Source of the DNA: Xanthobacteraceae bacterium
GTDB lineage: Bacteria; Pseudomonadota; Alphaproteobacteria; Rhizobiales; Xanthobacteraceae
Assembly (NCBI GenBank): GCA_030041005.1
Contig: JASHOR010000021.1
Coordinates: forward strand, 1 to 62,446
Direction of reading: 5' to 3'
Length of the DNA stretch: 62,446 nt
Made by a program: the position numbers and the translations under genes. The notes under the pieces are model-generated. The model did not search any database. It had not been told where the DNA came from and saw only the letters and a list, made by a program, of their open reading frames with translations. The stretch's first letter is position 1. The number at the start of each line of letters is the position of its first letter. Shown one piece after another: positions 16,783 to 29,869 of this stretch.

Positions 16783-16797
16783 CCGTTGCGAAACCCG

Positions 16798-17310
16798 ATG
16801 TGGCGGCCAAGCACACAACCGATCAAGGCGGTGGTTTTCCTCAGCCGGTGGCTGGTCGCACCGCTGCTGATCGGCCTTGCGTGCTGTCTTCTCCTCATCA
16901 TCTACCGCTTTTTCGCCGACCTGTTTGTGCTGTTCGCTGACGTTGCGAGCATGTCCTGGCACGACCTGGTTGTCGGCGTGCTCAATCTCGTCGATCTTGC
17001 GTTGACTGCGAATCTGGTCGTCATCGTTATTTTCTCCACGTTCGAGAATTATATTCAAAAAATCGATCCTGATGAGCATCGCGACTGGCCGGCGGGCCTG
17101 ATGGAGATCGACTTTGCCGTTCTCAAACAGAGGCTTCTCGGCTCGATCGCCGGCATTGCCGCTGTCGACGCGCTGGCCTGGTATCTCGATCTTGAGACGT
17201 ATACCGACACTTCAAAGCTCGGCTGGGCGCTGGCATTCCCGCTGATGTTCGTGGTCGCCATGGTGATGGTCGCCATCGCCGATTGGCTGGGGCGTCCCTC
17301 GGGCAAATGA
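16798..17310 (+). CDS. YqhA/UPF0114 family membrane protein
   Basis: A 170-residue protein (174 if TTG 16786 is used) with four hydrophobic segments, about residues 12-37, 50-75, 100-120 and 145-165. Features such as FLSRWLVAPLLIGL near the N-terminus and VDLALTANLVVIVIFSTFENYIQK in mid-protein are those of the UPF0114/YqhA family of unknown function. It starts just after the M24 gene and is followed closely by the MmgE/PrpD gene. Confidence 0.85.
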   Translation: MWRPSTQPIKAVVFLSRWLVAPLLIGLACCLLLIIYRFFADLFVLFADVASMSWHDLVVGVLNLVDLALTANLVVIVIFSTFENYIQKIDPDEHRDWPAGLMEIDFAVLKQRLLGSIAGIAAVDALAWYLDLETYTDTSKLGWALAFPLMFVVAMVMVAIADWLGRPSGK

Positions 17311-21742: not shown

Positions 21743-24700
21743 GTGGATTTCGCCCCTGCCTTGTTTGACGTCGTTCTCCTTGCGGTCGTCCTCGCATTGA
21801 TATTCCGCAAGCGACTGCGTGCATGGCTGTCGAGCAGGTTCAGGCGGACGGCGAAGAAGACCGGGCATCCGGTTATTGGCGTGCCAGACGCGCTCGATCC
21901 GGCGACGCTGACGACGCGATTGCACGATCTGGATAAGGTCTTCAGTGTTTTCGGCAATGAAGCCGCGCACCCGAGCGCCCTCTACGCGCATACCGACTTC
22001 ATGCAGGCCGTGGCGCTACTGTCCTCGCCGAGCGTGCCGCTGCCGACCATCCTCCAGTATGTCGAGGGCAATCGATGGGGATTGTCATGCGCGGCGCTGG
22101 CAGCGCTGCGCAGCCGTCCCGATCGCGATGCCGCGGTGGATCGGGTGCTCAGCCAGTGCGCGCATTATTATCCATGGCCGATGCATTTTGCGCTGGAGTT
22201 GCTGTTCGACGCCCAGCCGAGAACGCCGGTCGGCGCGCCGCTGCTGCGCGCCAAGGAGTGGTGGATCGACAATCGGTGGATGCCGAATGTCATTCGCGAA
22301 TATTTCGAACGCTGCGCCGCGCGCGGCGATCCGCCTGCGTTCGGTCCGAGTCTGAAGACGCAAAGCGCGTCGCTGCAGCAGATGATCCGCCGTTTCCTGG
22401 AACATGTCGAGCATCCGACGAGCGACGCGCTGATCGCGGAGCTTGACAAGCAGCAGACGGCAACGCTGGAGCTTCCGGTGGAATCGCTGGGCGTGTTGAA
22501 CACGGTGGGGCGGTTCTGGAAGAAGGACATCGATCTTGGCCTCGTGGCACCGGACGCCTGGAGCGAGGCGTTGGAGATTGCCTCGGCCACGCTGCGGCAA
22601 AATCCACCGCGCGCGCTATTGGTTTGCGGCGAACCGCTGGTGGGAAAAACCTCGTTCCTGGAGCTGCTCGCCGCGCGGCTTGCCGCGGATGGATGGAGCG
22701 TGTTCGAGGCCAGCGGCGTCGATCTTCAGGCCGATCAGGTCTACATCGGCCAACTCGAGGGGCGGATCCGCAACGTCATCGACGAATTGGGCAAGGGTCA
22801 CAAATTCATCTGGTACATTCCCGATATCGTGCAGCTCGCGCTCAGTGGCCGGCATCACGGACAGACCGCGACCATGCTGGACCAGATCGCGCCGGCGATC
22901 GCCGCCGGCCGATTGGTGGTGTGGTGCGAGGCGACCCCGAAGGGGGCGGCGCGGTTGTTGCAGGCCAAGCCATCGCTGCGCGGTCTGTTCGAGACTGTGG
23001 TCATCGATCCGCTGTCCTCGGCCGAGACCCTGTCGCTGGCGCGCGCCGTGATCGCGCATCTGGACAAAAATTCCTCGATCCATTTTCAATCCGATTGCGC
23101 CCAGGTGGCACTCGATACCGCCAGCCAATACCTCGGCACGGTCGGGCGGCCGGGCGCGGCGCTGTACCTCCTCAAGCTCACCGCGGTGCGCGCCGAAGCA
23201 AGCCGGGAAAAGGAGATCGCACCGCGGCGCGTGCTCGAAACGCTTTCGCAGCTTTCCGGGCTGCCGGTCTCGATACTCGACACCAAGGAACAGCTCGATC
23301 TCAAATCGGTGCGCGATTTCTTCGCCGTACGCGTACTCGGCCAGGATGAGGCGGTCGCCGCCGTCGTAGATCGCATCGCCATGCTGAAGGCCGGACTGAA
23401 CGATCCCGGCAAGCCAATCGGCGTCTTTTTGTTTGCCGGCCCGACCGGCACCGGCAAGACCGAACTCGCGAAGGCGGTATCCGAATTTCTGTTCGGTTCG
23501 GTCGAACGCATGATTCGTCTCGATATGAGCGAATTCCAGACTCACGAATCGATCGGCAAGATTCTCGGGCAGAGCAACGCGTCGGCCGTGGAAGCCGATT
23601 CCCTGATCAGCCGCGTGCGCAAGCAGCCGTTCTCGGTGCTGCTGCTGGACGAGTTCGAAAAATCCCATCCGATGATCTGGGACTTGTTCCTGCAGGCGTT
23701 CGACGAGGGGCGGCTGACCGACGCAATGGGCCAGGTCGCCGACCTGCGCCATTGCCTGATCATTCTGACGTCGAATCTCGGAGCGACCGCGCATCGCACC
23801 CTCGGGCTAGGCTTCGCGCCGCAGGCAGACGAGTTCAGCAAGGAGCAAGTGCTGCGCGCGATCAGCCAGACCTACCGGCCCGAATTCCAGAATCGGCTCG
23901 ACAAGGTCATTGTCTTTCATCCGCTGAGCCGCGAACTGATGCGCGGCATCCTCAAGAAGGAGCTGGCTGCGCTGCTGGAGCGGCGCGGCCTCAAGGACCG
24001 CGCCTGGGCGATCGAGTGGGAATCCTCCGCACTTGAATTTCTGCTTGAGCGAGGGTTCTCGCCGGAAATGGGCGCGCGACCGTTGAAACGGGCCATCGAC
24101 CAATACGTCGTGGCGCCGCTTGCCGGGATGATCGTCGAAAAGCGATTTCCCGAAGGCGAGCAGTTTCTTTTTGTCCGCAGTGACGGCATCCACATCCAGG
24201 TAGAGTTTGTCGATCCGGACGCGGAGATCGCGCCTGCGCAAGGTGCTGTCGCGCCGCCCGCCGGCTCGGGGGCCCGGGCCGCCCTCGCGTCCGTCATCCT
24301 CGCGCCGAACGGAACGCGCGCCGAGTTTCAGATGTTGGAAGCCGAATATGACGACATCGAGCAGGCCCTGAAATCGGAGGAGTGGAACAGCCTCAAGGAC
24401 AGGCTTGCGGAGGAAATGTCGTCGCCGGATTTCTGGCAGCGAGCCGACCGATTCGATACTCTCGCCCGCTATGCCCTCATGGACCGGGTCAAGGCTGCGG
24501 TCGAAACGGCCGGTTTGTTGCGCCGACGGCTGGAGAGATACAATCCTTCGCCGGTGCGTTATTCGGCGCAACTGAGCGGCCGTCTGGCCCTGCAACTGCG
24601 CCTGATCCGAGAGGGCATCAGGGATGCGTTCGAAAACGCGCCGGTCGAACTGGCGCTGGCGATTGAGCCGGTATTCGATGCCGCCGGCGAGCGGCAGGCG

Positions 24701-25132
24701 ACGCTCGCATGGTGCGATCGATTGCGGTCGATGTATCGCGCCTGGGCGAGCCGGCGCCGCATGCAGATCACCGAAGTTCCGGGCAGCGGGACCGACAAGA
24801 ATCGCCCGATCCTGACGGTCGGCGGCTTTGGCGCCCATCGCATCCTGACGCCCGAAGCCGGGCTGCACATCTTCGAGCCGTGCGAGGGCGGTCCGGGCCG
24901 AGTGATCGCGCGCGTTCAGCTCGCCGCCGTCCCGCTCGGCGATGTGCCGGTCGCCAAGGAGCACAAGCTGACCGTCGAGGCGATCGAGCAAGCGCCGAGG
25001 GCCAGTGCGGTGGTGCGGCGCTACCGCGAACAGCCTCCGCTGGTTCGTGACGGCTCCGGCAAGTGGCGTACCGGCCGTCTCGATCTGGTGCTTGGCGGAG
25101 ATTTCGATCTGCTTCAGGCCGGGGAGCGATAA
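21743..25132 (+). CDS. membrane-anchored Clp-like double AAA+ ATPase with C-terminal RF2-like domain
   Basis: 1129 residues. GTG start with GCGGAG upstream. Residues 5-21 form one membrane helix followed by RKRLRAW, so the bulk should be cytoplasmic. Residues 40-290 are unrecognised. AAA+ domain 1: Walker A GEPLVGKT (296-303, Lys302), pore loop VYIGQLEGR (Tyr334), but a degraded Walker B (IWYIPDI, 356-362). AAA+ domain 2 is Clp D2-like: VLGQDEAV, Walker A GPTGTGKT (566-573), Walker B LLLDEFEKSH (633-642), YRPEFQNRLD and sensor-2 GARPLKR; the aromatic pore motif GYVGY is missing. Residues about 865-1129 resemble peptide chain release factor 2: AEEMSSPDFW (PCRF helix), SMYRAWASRRRMQITEV, EAGLHIFEP, then VVRRYREQPPLVRD and TGRLDLVLGGDFD, like the RF2 C-terminus. 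The stop-codon SPF motif and the GGQ domain are absent. Its 3' end overlaps hpnG tail to tail by 19 nt. Confidence 0.85.
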   Translation: MDFAPALFDVVLLAVVLALIFRKRLRAWLSSRFRRTAKKTGHPVIGVPDALDPATLTTRLHDLDKVFSVFGNEAAHPSALYAHTDFMQAVALLSSPSVPLPTILQYVEGNRWGLSCAALAALRSRPDRDAAVDRVLSQCAHYYPWPMHFALELLFDAQPRTPVGAPLLRAKEWWIDNRWMPNVIREYFERCAARGDPPAFGPSLKTQSASLQQMIRRFLEHVEHPTSDALIAELDKQQTATLELPVESLGVLNTVGRFWKKDIDLGLVAPDAWSEALEIASATLRQNPPRALLVCGEPLVGKTSFLELLAARLAADGWSVFEASGVDLQADQVYIGQLEGRIRNVIDELGKGHKFIWYIPDIVQLALSGRHHGQTATMLDQIAPAIAAGRLVVWCEATPKGAARLLQAKPSLRGLFETVVIDPLSSAETLSLARAVIAHLDKNSSIHFQSDCAQVALDTASQYLGTVGRPGAALYLLKLTAVRAEASREKEIAPRRVLETLSQLSGLPVSILDTKEQLDLKSVRDFFAVRVLGQDEAVAAVVDRIAMLKAGLNDPGKPIGVFLFAGPTGTGKTELAKAVSEFLFGSVERMIRLDMSEFQTHESIGKILGQSNASAVEADSLISRVRKQPFSVLLLDEFEKSHPMIWDLFLQAFDEGRLTDAMGQVADLRHCLIILTSNLGATAHRTLGLGFAPQADEFSKEQVLRAISQTYRPEFQNRLDKVIVFHPLSRELMRGILKKELAALLERRGLKDRAWAIEWESSALEFLLERGFSPEMGARPLKRAIDQYVVAPLAGMIVEKRFPEGEQFLFVRSDGIHIQVEFVDPDAEIAPAQGAVAPPAGSGARAALASVILAPNGTRAEFQMLEAEYDDIEQALKSEEWNSLKDRLAEEMSSPDFWQRADRFDTLARYALMDRVKAAVETAGLLRRRLERYNPSPVRYSAQLSGRLALQLRLIREGIRDAFENAPVELALAIEPVFDAAGERQATLAWCDRLRSMYRAWASRRRMQITEVPGSGTDKNRPILTVGGFGAHRILTPEAGLHIFEPCEGGPGRVIARVQLAAVPLGDVPVAKEHKLTVEAIEQAPRASAVVRRYREQPPLVRDGSGKWRTGRLDLVLGGDFDLLQAGER

Positions 25133-25983
25133 GTCGCGACGGCACTCGGTTGCGCCAAATCCGAGTCTGCCAACGCGCCGGTTGCCAAGGCGCCCGGCGG
25201 CGGCCCGGAGCCGGCCAGACTGGTCAGCCCGAATCCTGCGCCAAGCAACTGCCGCACACGCTCCATTTCGCAGCAGGCTATGTAGGCATCGAGCGAGACG
25301 CGGAGGAGTCCGGACAATTGCGACGGCCGAGCGATGAGGTCGCGCAAAACTGCCACTCCATCAGCGCGAGCCCCGCCGTGCAGGCCCTTTAGTGCCGCGG
25401 ACGGTATGGTGCGGTGAGCAGGATCGACGATGACGCGGAGTGCGGCGAAGGCCAAGCCATGGGCGGCGGCAATCTTGGAAGCGACGTGGGATTCCATGTC
25501 AACCGCGGCGGCGCCGGTCGCTCGGTGCAGTTCGCGCTTGTGTGCCGGCTCGGCAATCGGGCTATCCACACCGACGATCGGCACGTGGCGCGCGTCGCCG
25601 CCGAGCGCGTCGAGGAGCTTGCCGGACCATCCTCTGTCCGTCGAATGCGCTACGCCGGATTCGAAGATAGCGGATGCGACCACCCAGTCGCCTGCACGCA
25701 GATCCGCCGCAAGGCCTCCGGCGACGCCAAAGCTGATGATGCCGCGATAACCGAGGCGGGATGCGCTTTTTGCGGCCGCCTCCAATTCTCGCCGGCTGTC
25801 GCGGGTAAAAACCAAGACTCCGGGTCCAGCGGCAATCCGGGCCTCAAACGTCATGCCGACAAAGGCGATGACCGTTCGCGGGATGTCTTGGAGCGCCGTA
25901 TCCGAAGCTTGACCAGTGGGTTCGCCTCCGCCCAGCAAGCTCTCTGCCAGACCGGTGTCGACAAACTGCGCTTCGGTTGTCAT
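25114..25983 (-). CDS. hpnG: hopanoid-associated nucleosidase/phosphorylase HpnG
   Basis: A 289-residue protein of the nucleoside phosphorylase/MTAN fold. It shows GIISFGVAGGLAADLRAGDWVV and the family glutamate in AAVDMESHVAS. HpnG removes adenine from adenosylhopane to give ribosylhopane in bacteriohopanetetrol synthesis. Its place beside hpnA and the hpnB-hpnI-hpnJ operon supports this over general purine salvage. It is divergent from hpnA across 259 bases that should hold both promoters. The last 19 bases overlap the AAA+ gene on the other strand. Confidence 0.85.
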   Translation of the reverse strand: MTTEAQFVDTGLAESLLGGGEPTGQASDTALQDIPRTVIAFVGMTFEARIAAGPGVLVFTRDSRRELEAAAKSASRLGYRGIISFGVAGGLAADLRAGDWVVASAIFESGVAHSTDRGWSGKLLDALGGDARHVPIVGVDSPIAEPAHKRELHRATGAAAVDMESHVASKIAAAHGLAFAALRVIVDPAHRTIPSAALKGLHGGARADGVAVLRDLIARPSQLSGLLRVSLDAYIACCEMERVRQLLGAGFGLTSLAGSGPPPGALATGALADSDLAQPSAVATYRSPA

Positions 25984-26242: not shown

Positions 26243-27250
26243 ATGGTTTGCACTGCACAAACGTTACTTACAGGCGCCAGCGGATTTGTCGGCTCCGCCG
26301 TGGCGCGAATGTTGCTTGACGCCGGATTTAGCGTGCGGGCGTTGGTGCGCCCGAGCAGTCCACGCTTCCACCTCGACGGAATCGATCTTGAATTCGTCGA
26401 AGGCGACCTTCGCGATGCGGGATCGGTCCGCCAAGCGATGACCGGTGTCCGTTATGTTTTCCACGTCGCAGCGGATTATCGACTCTGGGCGCACGATCCC
26501 GGCGAGATCATCAACACCAATGTCGAGGGCACGCGCAACGTCATGCGGGAGGCCCTTCGCGCCGGTGTTGAGCGTGTCGTGTATACCAGCAGCGTTGCGA
26601 CATTGGGGCTACGACCGGATGGCAGCGCGGCAGATGAATCAGTACCACTGAGCGAATTCCAGGGCATTGGCGCCTACAAGCGCAGCAAAATCGCTGCCGA
26701 GCGGCTGGTCGAGGCGATGGTTGCCGCGGAGCGGCTTCCGGCGGTGATCGTGAATCCATCGACCCCGATCGGGCCGCGCGACGTCAAGCCGACACCCACC
26801 GGCCGCATCATTGTCGAGGCGGCGCGTGGCCGCATCCCCGGATTTGTCGATACCGGTCTCAATCTCGTGCACGTCGATGACGTGGCCGCCGGGCATCTCG
26901 CGGCGCTCAGGCGGGGCACCGTTGGCGAACGATACATTCTCGCCGGCGCCAACGTTCGTTTCGCCGACATGCTCGCGGACATCGCGCGCTTGGTCGGCCG
27001 CAACCCACCGCTCCTGCGTGTCCCGCGCGCCGCCGCGATCCCGGTCGCCTATGCGGCGCAAGCGATGGCCCGGTTGACCGGACGCGAGCCGTTCGCCACG
27101 GTGGACGGCGTTCGCATGGCCAAATACCGCATGTTCTTCAGCGCTGCCAAGGCCGAACGCGATCTCGGATTTCGCCCGCGACCCTATCTGTTCGGTCTTG
27201 AAGACGCGATCCGCTGGTTCCGACAAGCGGGCTACCTGGATCGCAGGTGA
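26243..27250 (+). CDS. hpnA: hopanoid-associated NAD-dependent epimerase/dehydratase HpnA
   Basis: A 335-residue extended SDR. The Rossmann glycine motif is TGASGFVG near the N-terminus. The serine-tyrosine-lysine triad is in TSSVATLG and YKRSK. The middle reads FHVAADYRLWAHDP and NTNVEGTRNVM, typical of HpnA. It is a putative sugar/ribosyl oxidoreductase of hopanoid side-chain processing. It converges on hpnJ with 13 bases between stop codons. Confidence 0.88.
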   Translation: MVCTAQTLLTGASGFVGSAVARMLLDAGFSVRALVRPSSPRFHLDGIDLEFVEGDLRDAGSVRQAMTGVRYVFHVAADYRLWAHDPGEIINTNVEGTRNVMREALRAGVERVVYTSSVATLGLRPDGSAADESVPLSEFQGIGAYKRSKIAAERLVEAMVAAERLPAVIVNPSTPIGPRDVKPTPTGRIIVEAARGRIPGFVDTGLNLVHVDDVAAGHLAALRRGTVGERYILAGANVRFADMLADIARLVGRNPPLLRVPRAAAIPVAYAAQAMARLTGREPFATVDGVRMAKYRMFFSAAKAERDLGFRPRPYLFGLEDAIRWFRQAGYLDRR

Positions 27251-27263
27251 CGCGGCCTGCGCG

Positions 27264-28694
27264 TCAATGCACCAGTTGTCGCCGTTCGCGCAGGAAGGAG
27301 AAGAATTCTACGCCTTCGCGCAGCCGGCGCACCATCATGTCCGGACTGCGCACCATTTCCGAGACGATCGAGGCGATCTTGGGGGCTCGGAAGTAGAAGC
27401 GCCGATAGAAATCTTCCAGCGACTGGAAAATCTCGGTATGGCTCAGATGCGGATAATGCAGTGGGGCTATCTGGACGCCGCTGGCGTCCACCAATTGTGC
27501 GTGCTCCTCGTCGAGCCAGCCGTGCTCGAGAGCCTCGTGGTACAGTTCGGTCCCCGGATACGGCGCCGCAATCGAGACCTGGATCGTGTGCGGATTGATT
27601 TCCGTTGCAAACCGTATGGTCTCCTCGATGGTCTCTTGCGTCTCCCCGGGCAGCCCGAGGATGAAGGTGCCGTGAATGGTGATGCCCAGTTCATGGCAAT
27701 CGCGGGTGAAGCGGCGCGCTACGTCGATGCGCATGCCCTTCCTGATGTTGTGGAGGATCTGCTGATTGCCGCTCTCGTAGCCGACAAGCAGGAGCCGCAG
27801 CCCGTTGTCACGCATGACTTTCAGGGTATCCCGCGGCACATTGGCCTTGGCGTTGCATGACCAGGTGACGCCGAGCTTGCCCAGCTCGCGCGCAATAGCT
27901 TCGGTGCGCGGCCGATCGTCGGTGAAAGTATCGTCGTCGAAGAAGAATTCCTTGACTTGCGGAAACGCTGCTTTCGCCCAGCGAATCTCGTCGATCACGT
28001 GGCCGACACTGCGGGTGCGGTAGCGATGGCCGCCGACTGTTTGCGGCCAAAGGCAGAAGGTGCAGCGCGATTTGCAGCCGCGCCCGGTGTAAAGCGAGAG
28101 GTAGGGATGCTTTAAATAGCCGATGAAGTAATTCTCGACGGTCAGGTCGCGCTTGTAGACCGGCGTGACGAAGGGCAATTCGTCCATGTTCTGCAAAATG
28201 GCCCGTGGCGGATTGTGCCGGATGCTGCCGTCGGTGTCGCGGTAGGACAGGCCGGAAATGGCGCTCCAGTCGCGACCGTCGGCTATCTCCTTGATGGTGA
28301 AATCGAATTCGTTGCCAGCAACGAAATCGATGGCCGCCGAGCTTGTCAGGCTCGTCGACGGCTCGACCGCGACTTTGGCCCCGACAAAGCCCGCCTTGAG
28401 GCCCGGATTGGCGGACTTGAGAGCCTCAACGACCCGCACGTCGGAGGAAAACGACGGGGTCGAAGTGTGCAGAACCGCAAGATCATAATCACCAGCGAGA
28501 CCAACGATGTCGGATAGAGGTACGCCGTTGGGAACGGCATCGATGAGCTTGCTGTCCGGAACGACGGCCGCCACCTGGGCGAGCCACGTTGGATACCAGT
28601 AAGAGCGGATCTCGCGCCGCGCTTGATAGCGCGATCCGGCTCCCCCGTCGAAGCCGTCAAACGAGGGAGCTTGCAGACACAATGTTCGCATCAT
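27264..28694 (-). CDS. hpnJ: radical SAM hopanoid cyclitol-ether synthase HpnJ
   Basis: A 476-residue B12-binding-domain radical SAM enzyme. The cobalamin-type domain covers about residues 1-170, and the [4Fe-4S] motif is CKSRCTFC within YTGRGCKSRCTFCLW. Downstream motifs DDDTFTDDRP and GTFILGLPGETQET fit the class. HpnJ is the enzyme proposed to contract the glucosamine ring into the cyclitol ether head group of bacteriohopanetetrol. The ATG at 28694 overlaps the hpnI stop (ATGA), although the open frame extends upstream through hpnI. Confidence 0.9.
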   Translation of the reverse strand: MMRTLCLQAPSFDGFDGGAGSRYQARREIRSYWYPTWLAQVAAVVPDSKLIDAVPNGVPLSDIVGLAGDYDLAVLHTSTPSFSSDVRVVEALKSANPGLKAGFVGAKVAVEPSTSLTSSAAIDFVAGNEFDFTIKEIADGRDWSAISGLSYRDTDGSIRHNPPRAILQNMDELPFVTPVYKRDLTVENYFIGYLKHPYLSLYTGRGCKSRCTFCLWPQTVGGHRYRTRSVGHVIDEIRWAKAAFPQVKEFFFDDDTFTDDRPRTEAIARELGKLGVTWSCNAKANVPRDTLKVMRDNGLRLLLVGYESGNQQILHNIRKGMRIDVARRFTRDCHELGITIHGTFILGLPGETQETIEETIRFATEINPHTIQVSIAAPYPGTELYHEALEHGWLDEEHAQLVDASGVQIAPLHYPHLSHTEIFQSLEDFYRRFYFRAPKIASIVSEMVRSPDMMVRRLREGVEFFSFLRERRQLVH

Positions 28695-29869
28695 GAGCGC
28701 CTCAGGTCTTCCTCGACGAGGGTCCCATCCGCGGTCACGCGATAATTGGCCCCTCGCCAGTGAACCGTCGCCCCGAAAAAACTCGTCACATAGACGGCGA
28801 ATGCAATGAGATCGTGCACCGGAATAAGCCAATAGCCCTCCCGGGGCAATCCGAAATGGCGCTCGACGCAGCGGCACAGTGCGATTCGCGAGGCGAGCGC
28901 CGCGATCGCGACCAGCACCGCGGCGGTGCTTCCGGAAAGCATGCCAATAAGAGCGAGCGGCCACGGATGGGTGATGATGGTGCCCGCATAACCGATCGGA
29001 TCGATGCTCTTGATGGTTCTGGCCACACGCAATTCGTGACGGAGGAGTTGGCGCAAGCTGACCTCGAAGCACCGGTGGCCGACTACAAACGGCGCGGTAA
29101 CGACATCATAGCCGGCGGCCCGCACGGCGACACCGATCGCATAGTCGTCGGCGAGTTCGTCGGCAAAACGGCCAAAACTGCCGATCCTTTCAAGAGTGGA
29201 ACGCCGCATGGCGATCGTCGCGCCGAAGCACGGCTTTGTGATCCTCATACTAACGCCCGTGATTGCCTGCGGCAGAAAGTGCGAATTGATGGCGAGCGCG
29301 GAGAGCCGGGACCACAGGCCGGTGCCGCCGATGCCGTGATAAAGGCAGGTCACGGCGCCGACCCGCGGTCGGGCCAACAATCGAGCGATGGTGCGCAGAT
29401 AGCCGGGTCCTACCACGATATCGCTGTCGGAAACCGCTATCGTGTCGTGGCGCACGCGCGGCAGCATATTGATCAGATTCGACACCTTGTGATTGCTGCC
29501 GTGGCGGCGCGGATCCACATGAAGCTCGATAGGGTCGTCGGGACGCCGGCGTTGCAGGGCGCGGATAGCCGGCACGGCCGGCGAAGTGGAATCCCCGGTG
29601 CCGCAAAGAATTTGAATGGCGCCACCGTAGTTCTGCCGACAAAATGCATGAAGACGATCGGCGAGGCCGGGCTCCGACTCGTGCAGCGGCTTCAAGATCG
29701 TGACCGGCGGCTCCGCGCCACCTGCGACTGGTCCTTCCTCGCGAAAAGCCAATACGCAGCCGGCCTCGAACAGCATCAGCAGGCAGCCGACGAATGCACC
29801 GGCAAGGCAAATATCGCACAGCGACATCACAAAAGATGTCGCGTCCGGAATAGCGTGAAAAATACTCAT
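28691..29869 (-). CDS. hpnI: hopanoid glycosyltransferase HpnI
   Basis: A 392-residue membrane-bound family-2 glycosyltransferase related to ceramide glucosyltransferase. An N-terminal helix (about 13-40) precedes the GT-A domain with ILKPLHESEPGL, the DxD-like SDSDIVV, and the acceptor motif ADDYAIGVAVRAAG. C-terminal helices follow (about 300-320 and 350-370). HpnI transfers N-acetylglucosamine to bacteriohopanetetrol. It is coupled on both sides by 4-nt overlaps: with the YkoP-like gene before it and hpnJ after it. Confidence 0.9.
   Translation of the reverse strand: MSIFHAIPDATSFVMSLCDICLAGAFVGCLLMLFEAGCVLAFREEGPVAGGAEPPVTILKPLHESEPGLADRLHAFCRQNYGGAIQILCGTGDSTSPAVPAIRALQRRRPDDPIELHVDPRRHGSNHKVSNLINMLPRVRHDTIAVSDSDIVVGPGYLRTIARLLARPRVGAVTCLYHGIGGTGLWSRLSALAINSHFLPQAITGVSMRITKPCFGATIAMRRSTLERIGSFGRFADELADDYAIGVAVRAAGYDVVTAPFVVGHRCFEVSLRQLLRHELRVARTIKSIDPIGYAGTIITHPWPLALIGMLSGSTAAVLVAIAALASRIALCRCVERHFGLPREGYWLIPVHDLIAFAVYVTSFFGATVHWRGANYRVTADGTLVEEDLRRS

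Follow-up and report, generated by a model that had tools for sequence, protein, structure and literature searches.

A predicted Hsp100-type AAA+ protein with a release factor 2 remnant as its C-terminal domain

A 62,446-nucleotide stretch of DNA from a Xanthobacteraceae bacterium (contig JASHOR010000021.1; the window) carries an open reading frame (ORF) at 21743..25132 on the forward strand whose product, judged by sequence comparison, is an Hsp100 relative with an N-terminal hydrophobic segment and a domain-3-less release factor 2 (RF2) as a permanent C-terminal domain. The ORF is intact: it starts with GTG, ends with TAA (included in the coordinates), contains no internal stops, and encodes 1129 amino acids (aa). 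A full-length relative from a Xanthobacteraceae metagenome-assembled genome (locus L004) is 71% identical. From the N terminus, the protein consists of the hydrophobic segment, a helical domain, two AAA+ modules (D1 and D2), and a stretch of approximately 270 residues with homology to domains 1, 2, and 4 of RF2. A first-pass annotation had proposed that a single polypeptide joins a membrane anchor, two AAA+ modules, and a release factor scaffold; the peptides that it quoted are all present in the translated ORF, and the proposal is supported, with the anchor graded as likely. Comparison across family members indicates that the fusion is real and is kept in distantly related bacteria. We favor a reading in which the protein is a membrane-tethered, D2-driven remodeler whose RF2 remnant docks on a translation-linked partner, and we assign this reading as a whole a probability of roughly 0.4.

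From the single sequence alone, the likeness to RF2 is marginal. Taken by themselves, the C-terminal 280 residues have no matches other than these three: the PCRF domain, with an E value of 0.0014, under the Pfam cutoff; the prfB model TIGR00020, with an E value of 0.0013 (positions 15-193 within the 280 residues); and nine RF2 chains in the Protein Data Bank (PDB), at E values of 0.008-0.034. Once relatives are included, the evidence from sequence profiles becomes decisive. A profile (A6) of 17 family members, including the window and containing no release factor (one member, L042, is cut, and its AAA part is unseen), matches solved RF2 with an E value of 8e-15 and RF1 with an E value of 2e-6. 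The 42 PDB chains that A6 retrieves at E <= 1 are 39 release factors and three others (one of them a proteasome subunit), the latter at E values of 0.48-0.53. PCRF is matched by 17/17 members (best E, 1.4e-10), and hhalign comparison of A6 with 17 RF2s gives a probability of 98.7% (E, 4e-16), with an alignment that spans the gap left by domain 3, has aligned sequence on either side of it, and reaches the C terminus. A ten-row profile of family members only (A2) also matches ordinary frames of 352-423 aa in 13 genomes of a class-level sample (E, 9e-13 to 6.5e-16); 11 of these genomes had their loci checked, and all 11 carry both SP[FY] and GGQ. These matches bear out the first-pass claim that the C-terminal ~265 residues follow RF2 in order.

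The RF2-like C terminus (the tail) on its own gives a weaker signal (hhalign probability, 71.6%; E, 3.5e-5), and searching the PDB with just this tail retrieved no release factor at E <= 10. In 6 of 12 genomes, a tail-only profile matches frames of RF2 length (357-358 aa) at E values of 0.02-0.32, all in one register (model position 14 to 46 or 48), and two of these six frames lie at sites of RF2-type hits from the order-level scan described below; unrelated frames reach an E value of 0.027 in the same search, and the genome's own RF2 is absent from the matches listed. When folded, the C-terminal piece yielded a mean pLDDT of 50 (two alignment rows, the window and L004), with an order of helices and strands that suits the known order in RF2. 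The 17 best PDB matches of this low-confidence model in Foldseek are all RF2, RF1, or mtRF1 entries (best E, 2.9e-5; TM, ~0.2); this result is only supportive. Of the two outcomes that the first-pass annotation named as speaking against it, a lack of significant profile matches and a predicted fold unlike that of release factors, neither was observed.

The family has lost the parts of RF2 that serve decoding and catalysis. As noted at first pass, the SPF tripeptide and the GGQ-bearing part are missing: SP[FY] and GG[TS]E are absent from the tail regions (residue 821 to the end) of all 16 full-length members. The letters GGQ occur in 5/16 of these regions, none in a domain-3 context; they lie at the end of AAA D2 in L062, L070, and L071 and, in L037 and L039, at the beginning of the domain-1-like part or inside it. 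In the RF2 of the same genome, SPF is found at 184, GGQ at 229, the switch-loop sequence GWGH at 297, and the tail IRSYV from 302, while in the fusion the strand after the SPF region leads to the tail through ~25 variable residues in place of ~95 RF2 residues. Four parts can be delimited on the forward strand. The RF2 domain-1-like helical part (24308..24646; residues 856-968) is defined by hhalign with RF2, and the domain-2-like part (24647..24940; residues 969-1066), which lacks the GG(T/S)E tip and SPF, by hhalign and the PDB profile match; a short variable linker (24941..25006; mean pairwise identity, 17%) coincides with the hhalign gap and replaces domain 3 and the switch loop; and the domain-4-like, Arg-rich tail occupies 25007..25114 (residues 1089-1124). 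Across the homologs examined, the fusion is conserved, as is the absence of the GGQ-bearing part.

What has been kept is a small set of residues. Sixty-one aligned positions are invariant in the 17 RF2s; roughly ten of these fall in the domain-3/linker stretch, where the alignment is poor. Twelve of the 61 are kept in 17/17 members (W26, M130, Y131, W134, G164, A167, G176, H178, R303, Y305, G331, and D334), and three more in 16/17 (E174, R192, and L329). The S of SPF is kept in 3/17 members, and each position of the GGTE tip, which also reads the codon in RF2, in at most 2/17. The retained part looks like a fold core plus one Arg-rich tail. Mean pairwise identity within the family is 66% in the tail and 67% in AAA D2, compared with 35% and 39% in the domain-1-like and domain-2-like parts, respectively, and the tail carries 6-9 Arg/Lys residues in its first 35-36 positions versus 3 in the genome's own RF2. 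Because of its conservation, we predict that the tail is the likeliest binding site.

The AAA+ part is of Clp type and differs from both ClpA and ClpB. Pfam models place AAA_2 at residues 557-721 (E, 2.8e-39) and ClpB_D2-small at residues 728-807 (E, 1.5e-16). The NCBIfam ClpB model matches with an E value of 2.7e-90 (303.9 bits, below the curated cutoff of 1232.1) and the ClpA model with an E value of 1.7e-88 (297.6 bits, below the cutoff of 993.15). We aligned 15 members (L039 was not included) with ten Clp-type proteins from four holder genomes. In D1, the Walker A motif GEPLVGKT (22628..22651, forward strand, as for all features of this gene) conforms to G(x4)GK[ST], and pore-loop 1 YIG (22742..22750) retains an aromatic residue plus x plus G, each in 15/15 members. 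The Walker B site, which reads hhhhDE in ClpA and ClpB, is degenerate here (KFIWYIPDI, 22802..22828): the DE pair is missing at this site in 15/15 members but is found in all eight ClpB and ClpA-like references (four of each). Because D1 lacks DE throughout, we consider the protein an Hsp100 relative and not ClpA or ClpB.

The D2 module (23333..24172), the predicted motor, shows the reverse pattern. Its Walker A (AGPTGTGKTE, 23435..23464), Walker B (VLLLDEFEK, 23636..23662; LLDEFEK in all), and sensor-2 GAR (24071..24079; GARPL[KR]R in all) are retained in 15/15 members. The GYVG pore loop is found in 10/10 Clp-type references versus 0/15 members; at its site (23558..23605), the window protein reads KILGQSNASAVEADSL, compared with RLIGAPPGYVGYEEGG in ClpB. 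A further Clp-type AAA protein of a holder genome outside the class (L104, G929:C12:156083-157093) is encoded by a 607-aa ORF and does have GYVG; its first part did not align with a Clp D1.

The N terminus carries the predicted membrane anchor, a hydrophobic segment at residues 3-21 (21749..21805; Kyte-Doolittle mean, 2.67) that is followed by RKRLRAWLSSRFRR. A hydrophobic N-terminal stretch is present in 16/16 full-length members and ranks as the protein's highest peak in 15/16 and as its second highest in L004; the weakest peak (1.58) is that of L041, and the start of some frames may be placed too far upstream. Under the positive-inside rule, a flank rich in K/R faces the cytoplasm, and the seven K/R within the 15 residues after the segment suggest that the rest of the window protein is cytoplasmic. 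The helical N domain that follows (21896..22552) is helical in a second, likewise low-confidence model, that of the full-length protein, and is apparently family specific. With a profile of the N domain plus D1 (A9), the start of the profile was matched, among the matches listed, in only 3 fused proteins in 398 genomes; all remaining matches in the list start no earlier than position 124, across a gap in E values from 4.5e-138 to 3.3e-36. An unfused version of N domain plus D1 was likewise absent among the matches listed in these 398 genomes, with 4 candidates per genome scored.

The distribution of the family is scattered. The window's own genome (G000; 4.9 Mb in 188 contigs, 95% complete) belongs to a genus in which the gene is present in 2/20 genomes, many of them incomplete. 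In an order-level sample, a three-row profile (A1) identified the gene in 9/397 genomes, eight of them with frames 1128-1175 aa long and the ninth (G045) with a frame truncated at a contig edge. A further 141 genomes of the order gave weak A1 matches, those listed lying mostly in frames of ~345-435 aa; among 21 such loci, 13 passed an automatic test for GGQ and SPF, six were read and are RF2s with SPY and GGQ, and two were not inspected. Profile A2 retrieved the gene in 2/385 genomes of the class sample (its own and G784, from another order, 1150 aa) and in 3/398 of the phylum sample (its own, G929 with a 1238-aa frame, and G1130 with 1236 aa). In the taxonomic family of G929, which lies outside the class, 8/117 genomes carry the gene, and in a tree of the 16 full-length members, six members from this family group together with support of 100/100. 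Family matches lie in frames of at least 1067 aa, except for two at contig starts (G045 and G1193); the 1067-aa frame (G1231) matches only up to profile position 245, and its end was not inspected. A standalone GGQ-less RF2 domain was not found among the family matches in the genus, order, class, phylum, and G929-family scans.

Taken together, the RF2 remnant is probably the docking domain of a membrane-tethered remodeler with a single motor. The protein would form a hexamer facing the cytoplasm, in which D1 may bind ATP without hydrolyzing it while its pore-loop aromatics are still on offer, and D2, as the sole ATPase, would drive remodeling although it lacks the usual GYVG grip. Predicted to perform no release chemistry, the RF2 remnant would use its conserved tail and folded core to bring the ring to a partner, and the ring would pull apart or extract protein at the membrane. 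Our first choice of partner, which we put forward tentatively, is a translation-linked one at the membrane: the ribosome, the ribosomal stalk, or another RNA-containing (ribonucleoprotein) complex. Docking on ribosomes, as the first-pass annotation had suggested, is a plausible candidate role; the points counted for it are RF2 descent, retention of domain 1, and the Arg-rich conserved tail. In solved complexes, the contacts reported are those of SPF with the codon, of the switch-loop Trp with the decoding center, and of RF2 domain 1 with the L11 stalk (PMC5378476).

Several observations weigh against this reading. The decoding surface is eroded: 46/61 RF2-invariant positions, including the GGTE tip and SPF, are not kept in at least 16/17 members, and the switch-loop tryptophan has no counterpart in the family. 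Since GGTE tip, SPF, and switch-loop Trp are all lost, the sequence does not require docking in the A site. Within the family, the domain-1-like part shows just 35% conservation, and the tail contains 4-8 acidic residues versus 4 in the genome's own RF2, leaving its net charge only slightly positive. The K/R-rich flank that argues for a cytoplasmic orientation is absent in L037, and the structure models, with two usable rows (window and L004), are of low confidence. Distant members share no common gene neighbors among ten loci compared. An obligate partnership with release factor 3 (RF3) was considered and rejected: prfC is present in 14/17 holders, and the window's own genome has no prfC match at E 1e-80. 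Two of the three holders without an RF3 match are incomplete assemblies (84% and 71%).

The RF2 fold may instead have been recruited purely as a protein-protein scaffold, for a membrane or cytosolic substrate or adaptor or as ring padding, with no link to the ribosome or RNA left. We consider this quite possible, given that the decoding and catalytic elements are gone, that the retained residues look like a fold core, and that the distribution is scattered, with distant members lacking common neighbors in the ten loci. By itself, however, a scaffold leaves the motor-level conservation of the Arg-rich tail unexplained, although a protein-binding site there would explain it. An improbable alternative is that the remnant is an mRNA- or RNA-binding domain, as in PrfB3, and that the AAA+ ring remodels an RNA-protein complex. 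The conserved Arg-rich tail would suit such a role, and PrfB3 is reported to be an RF2 relative without SPF and GGQ that binds the petB 3' untranslated region (UTR) (PMC5897788). Against it, the link considered between PrfB3 and the fusion is RF2 descent, and distant family members lack common neighbors in the ten loci.

It is still less probable that the protein is a subunit of a ClpP-linked protease, with a tripeptide in D2 serving as the ClpP dock and the RF2 domain selecting substrates. ClpP is docked through a motif, [ILMV]G[FL], of its partner unfoldases, and the window protein has LGF (23807..23815) at the position of the ClpA tripeptide. All 10 same-class members examined (including L039, read separately) have [ILM]GF there, and the ClpA-like references read MGF, IGF, IGF, and, in the window's own genome, FGF. 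In the other lineage, however, 5/6 members read PGF or PAF, which makes a ClpP link doubtful; moreover, the release factor domain follows D2 and, from general Hsp100 architecture, would lie on the face where ClpP docks. Chance similarity or a decayed gene fusion (a pseudogene) is hardly credible. The single-sequence E values of about 0.001 would allow it, but the family profiles (A6 versus PDB, hhalign, and PCRF) rule out chance similarity, and the E value of 8e-15 to RF2, the PCRF match in 17/17 members, the frames of 16 members, open over 1101-1227 aa, and motifs conserved across the phylum all stand against both.

The genomic neighborhood carries no hint of function. Upstream on the same strand lies a gene for a succinate-semialdehyde-type dehydrogenase. 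Downstream, a convergent HpnG-like phosphorylase gene (25114-25983, reverse strand; just below its model cutoff) overlaps the fusion gene by 19 bases and is followed by further hopanoid genes, for HpnA (26243-27250, forward), HpnJ (27264-28697, reverse), and HpnI (28691-29869, reverse). L004 has the same neighbor order as the window, and the other compared loci differ; in L004, the fusion gene and hpnG overlap by 4 bases. A conserved operon partner was sought in the ten loci, a comparison made without seven later loci (L061-L063 and L070-L073), and rejected: close neighbors are common only to the window and L004 and to L035, L037, and L041, and three further locus pairs have weak neighbor matches (26-29% identity). 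In L035, L037, and L041, which belong to one family, some six to seven syntenic genes flank the fusion as a block; it includes a 78-97-aa ORF and is unseen in the other compared loci. Three loci of one genus (L062, 3748-4497; L070, 11606-12445; L071, 8269-9021) have, downstream of the fusion, a gene whose product carries YLRIG(D/E)LAxRSG close to the start and, on visual inspection, looks like a MerR-type regulator. Elsewhere in the window, 16786-17310 encodes a small TIGR00645-family protein, under the family cutoff.

RF2, ClpB, and a ClpA-like protein are encoded by separate genes in the window's own genome; the fusion therefore replaces none of them. Carriage by plasmids or phages was also considered and rejected. 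A tblastn search with the C-terminal part gave no match in the plasmid or phage collection; the whole protein meets 2286 plasmid records, none with one place covering 80% of the protein, and among viral contigs, profile A3 matches 12 loci, all within residues 275-840 (the AAA part), and the C-terminal profile none. Assignment to a defense system was rejected as well: when three members were compared with PADLOC models, only the AAA core matched, with the best stretches in the second AAA module.

A bacterial release factor that has been stripped of the parts for both of its functions, fused to an unfoldase, and conserved implies a use of the RF2 scaffold outside termination. If the ribosome is the target, the fusion would physically link translation with an Hsp100 machine at the membrane. 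The pairing of a D1 that has its pore-loop aromatic and no Walker B with a D2 that has its ATPase motifs and no GYVG is, in addition, an unusual natural experiment for AAA+ mechanics.

Compared with ClpA and ClpB, the window protein has the same D1-D2 order, D2 ATPase motifs, D1 Walker A and pore-loop aromatic, and ClpB_D2-small domain. It has no Clp N-domain family among its Pfam matches at E <= 1, and its residues 288-799 align to positions 209-721 of the ClpA model, which leaves no room for the ClpB middle domain. The fusion adds the N-terminal hydrophobic segment and C-terminal RF2 remnant and loses D1 Walker B and D2 GYVG. The PADLOC proteins DolB and PDC-M37B match its Clp-type AAA core (E, 1.2e-31 and 6e-24), with the best match limited to residues 516-682. 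With RF2 (prfB), it shares domains 1, 2, and 4, with the W26, MYxxW, G..A, and E.GxH positions and the RxY...LxGxxD tail; unlike RF2, it lacks the GG(T/S)E tip, SPF, switch-loop Trp, and GGQ domain and is joined to AAA+ modules.

Two known systems offer partial parallels. PrfB3, a plant chloroplast RF2 relative, has lost SPF and GGQ, binds the petB 3' UTR, and stabilizes petB mRNA (PMC5897788); by analogy, an RF2 without GGQ and SPF can take on an RNA role. PrfB3 thus resembles the fusion as an RF2 relative without these elements in another role, and differs in that the available part of that source mentions no AAA+ part or anchor for it. In eukaryotes, Vms1/VLRF-1 is a release factor-like protein tied to the AAA+ ATPase CDC48 by a CDC48-interacting motif; it belongs to the aeRF-1 superfamily, which is structurally unrelated to bacterial release factors (PMC6514570). 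This pair suggests, by analogy, that coupling of a release factor-like protein to an AAA+ motor is feasible; in Vms1 it occurs through an interaction motif and not by fusion, and here within a single polypeptide. The window protein might be a one-polypeptide bacterial counterpart of this eukaryotic ribosome quality control, in which a retired RF2 would dock an Hsp100 ring on stalled membrane ribosomes and the D2-driven ring would pull nascent chains or dismantle the complex, although we think this specific version unlikely. Among the open PubMed Central papers listed in our searches for such a fusion or for GGQ-less release factors (subscription journals and sequence-database annotation lie outside this scope), no title or abstract described this architecture, and the available main text of a review of release factor evolution contains neither "PCRF" nor "Clp." Hsp100 proteins and RF2 are each already known; as far as these listed papers show, what is new is the fusion with a domain-3-less RF2, together with the loss of Walker B from D1 and of GYVG from D2.

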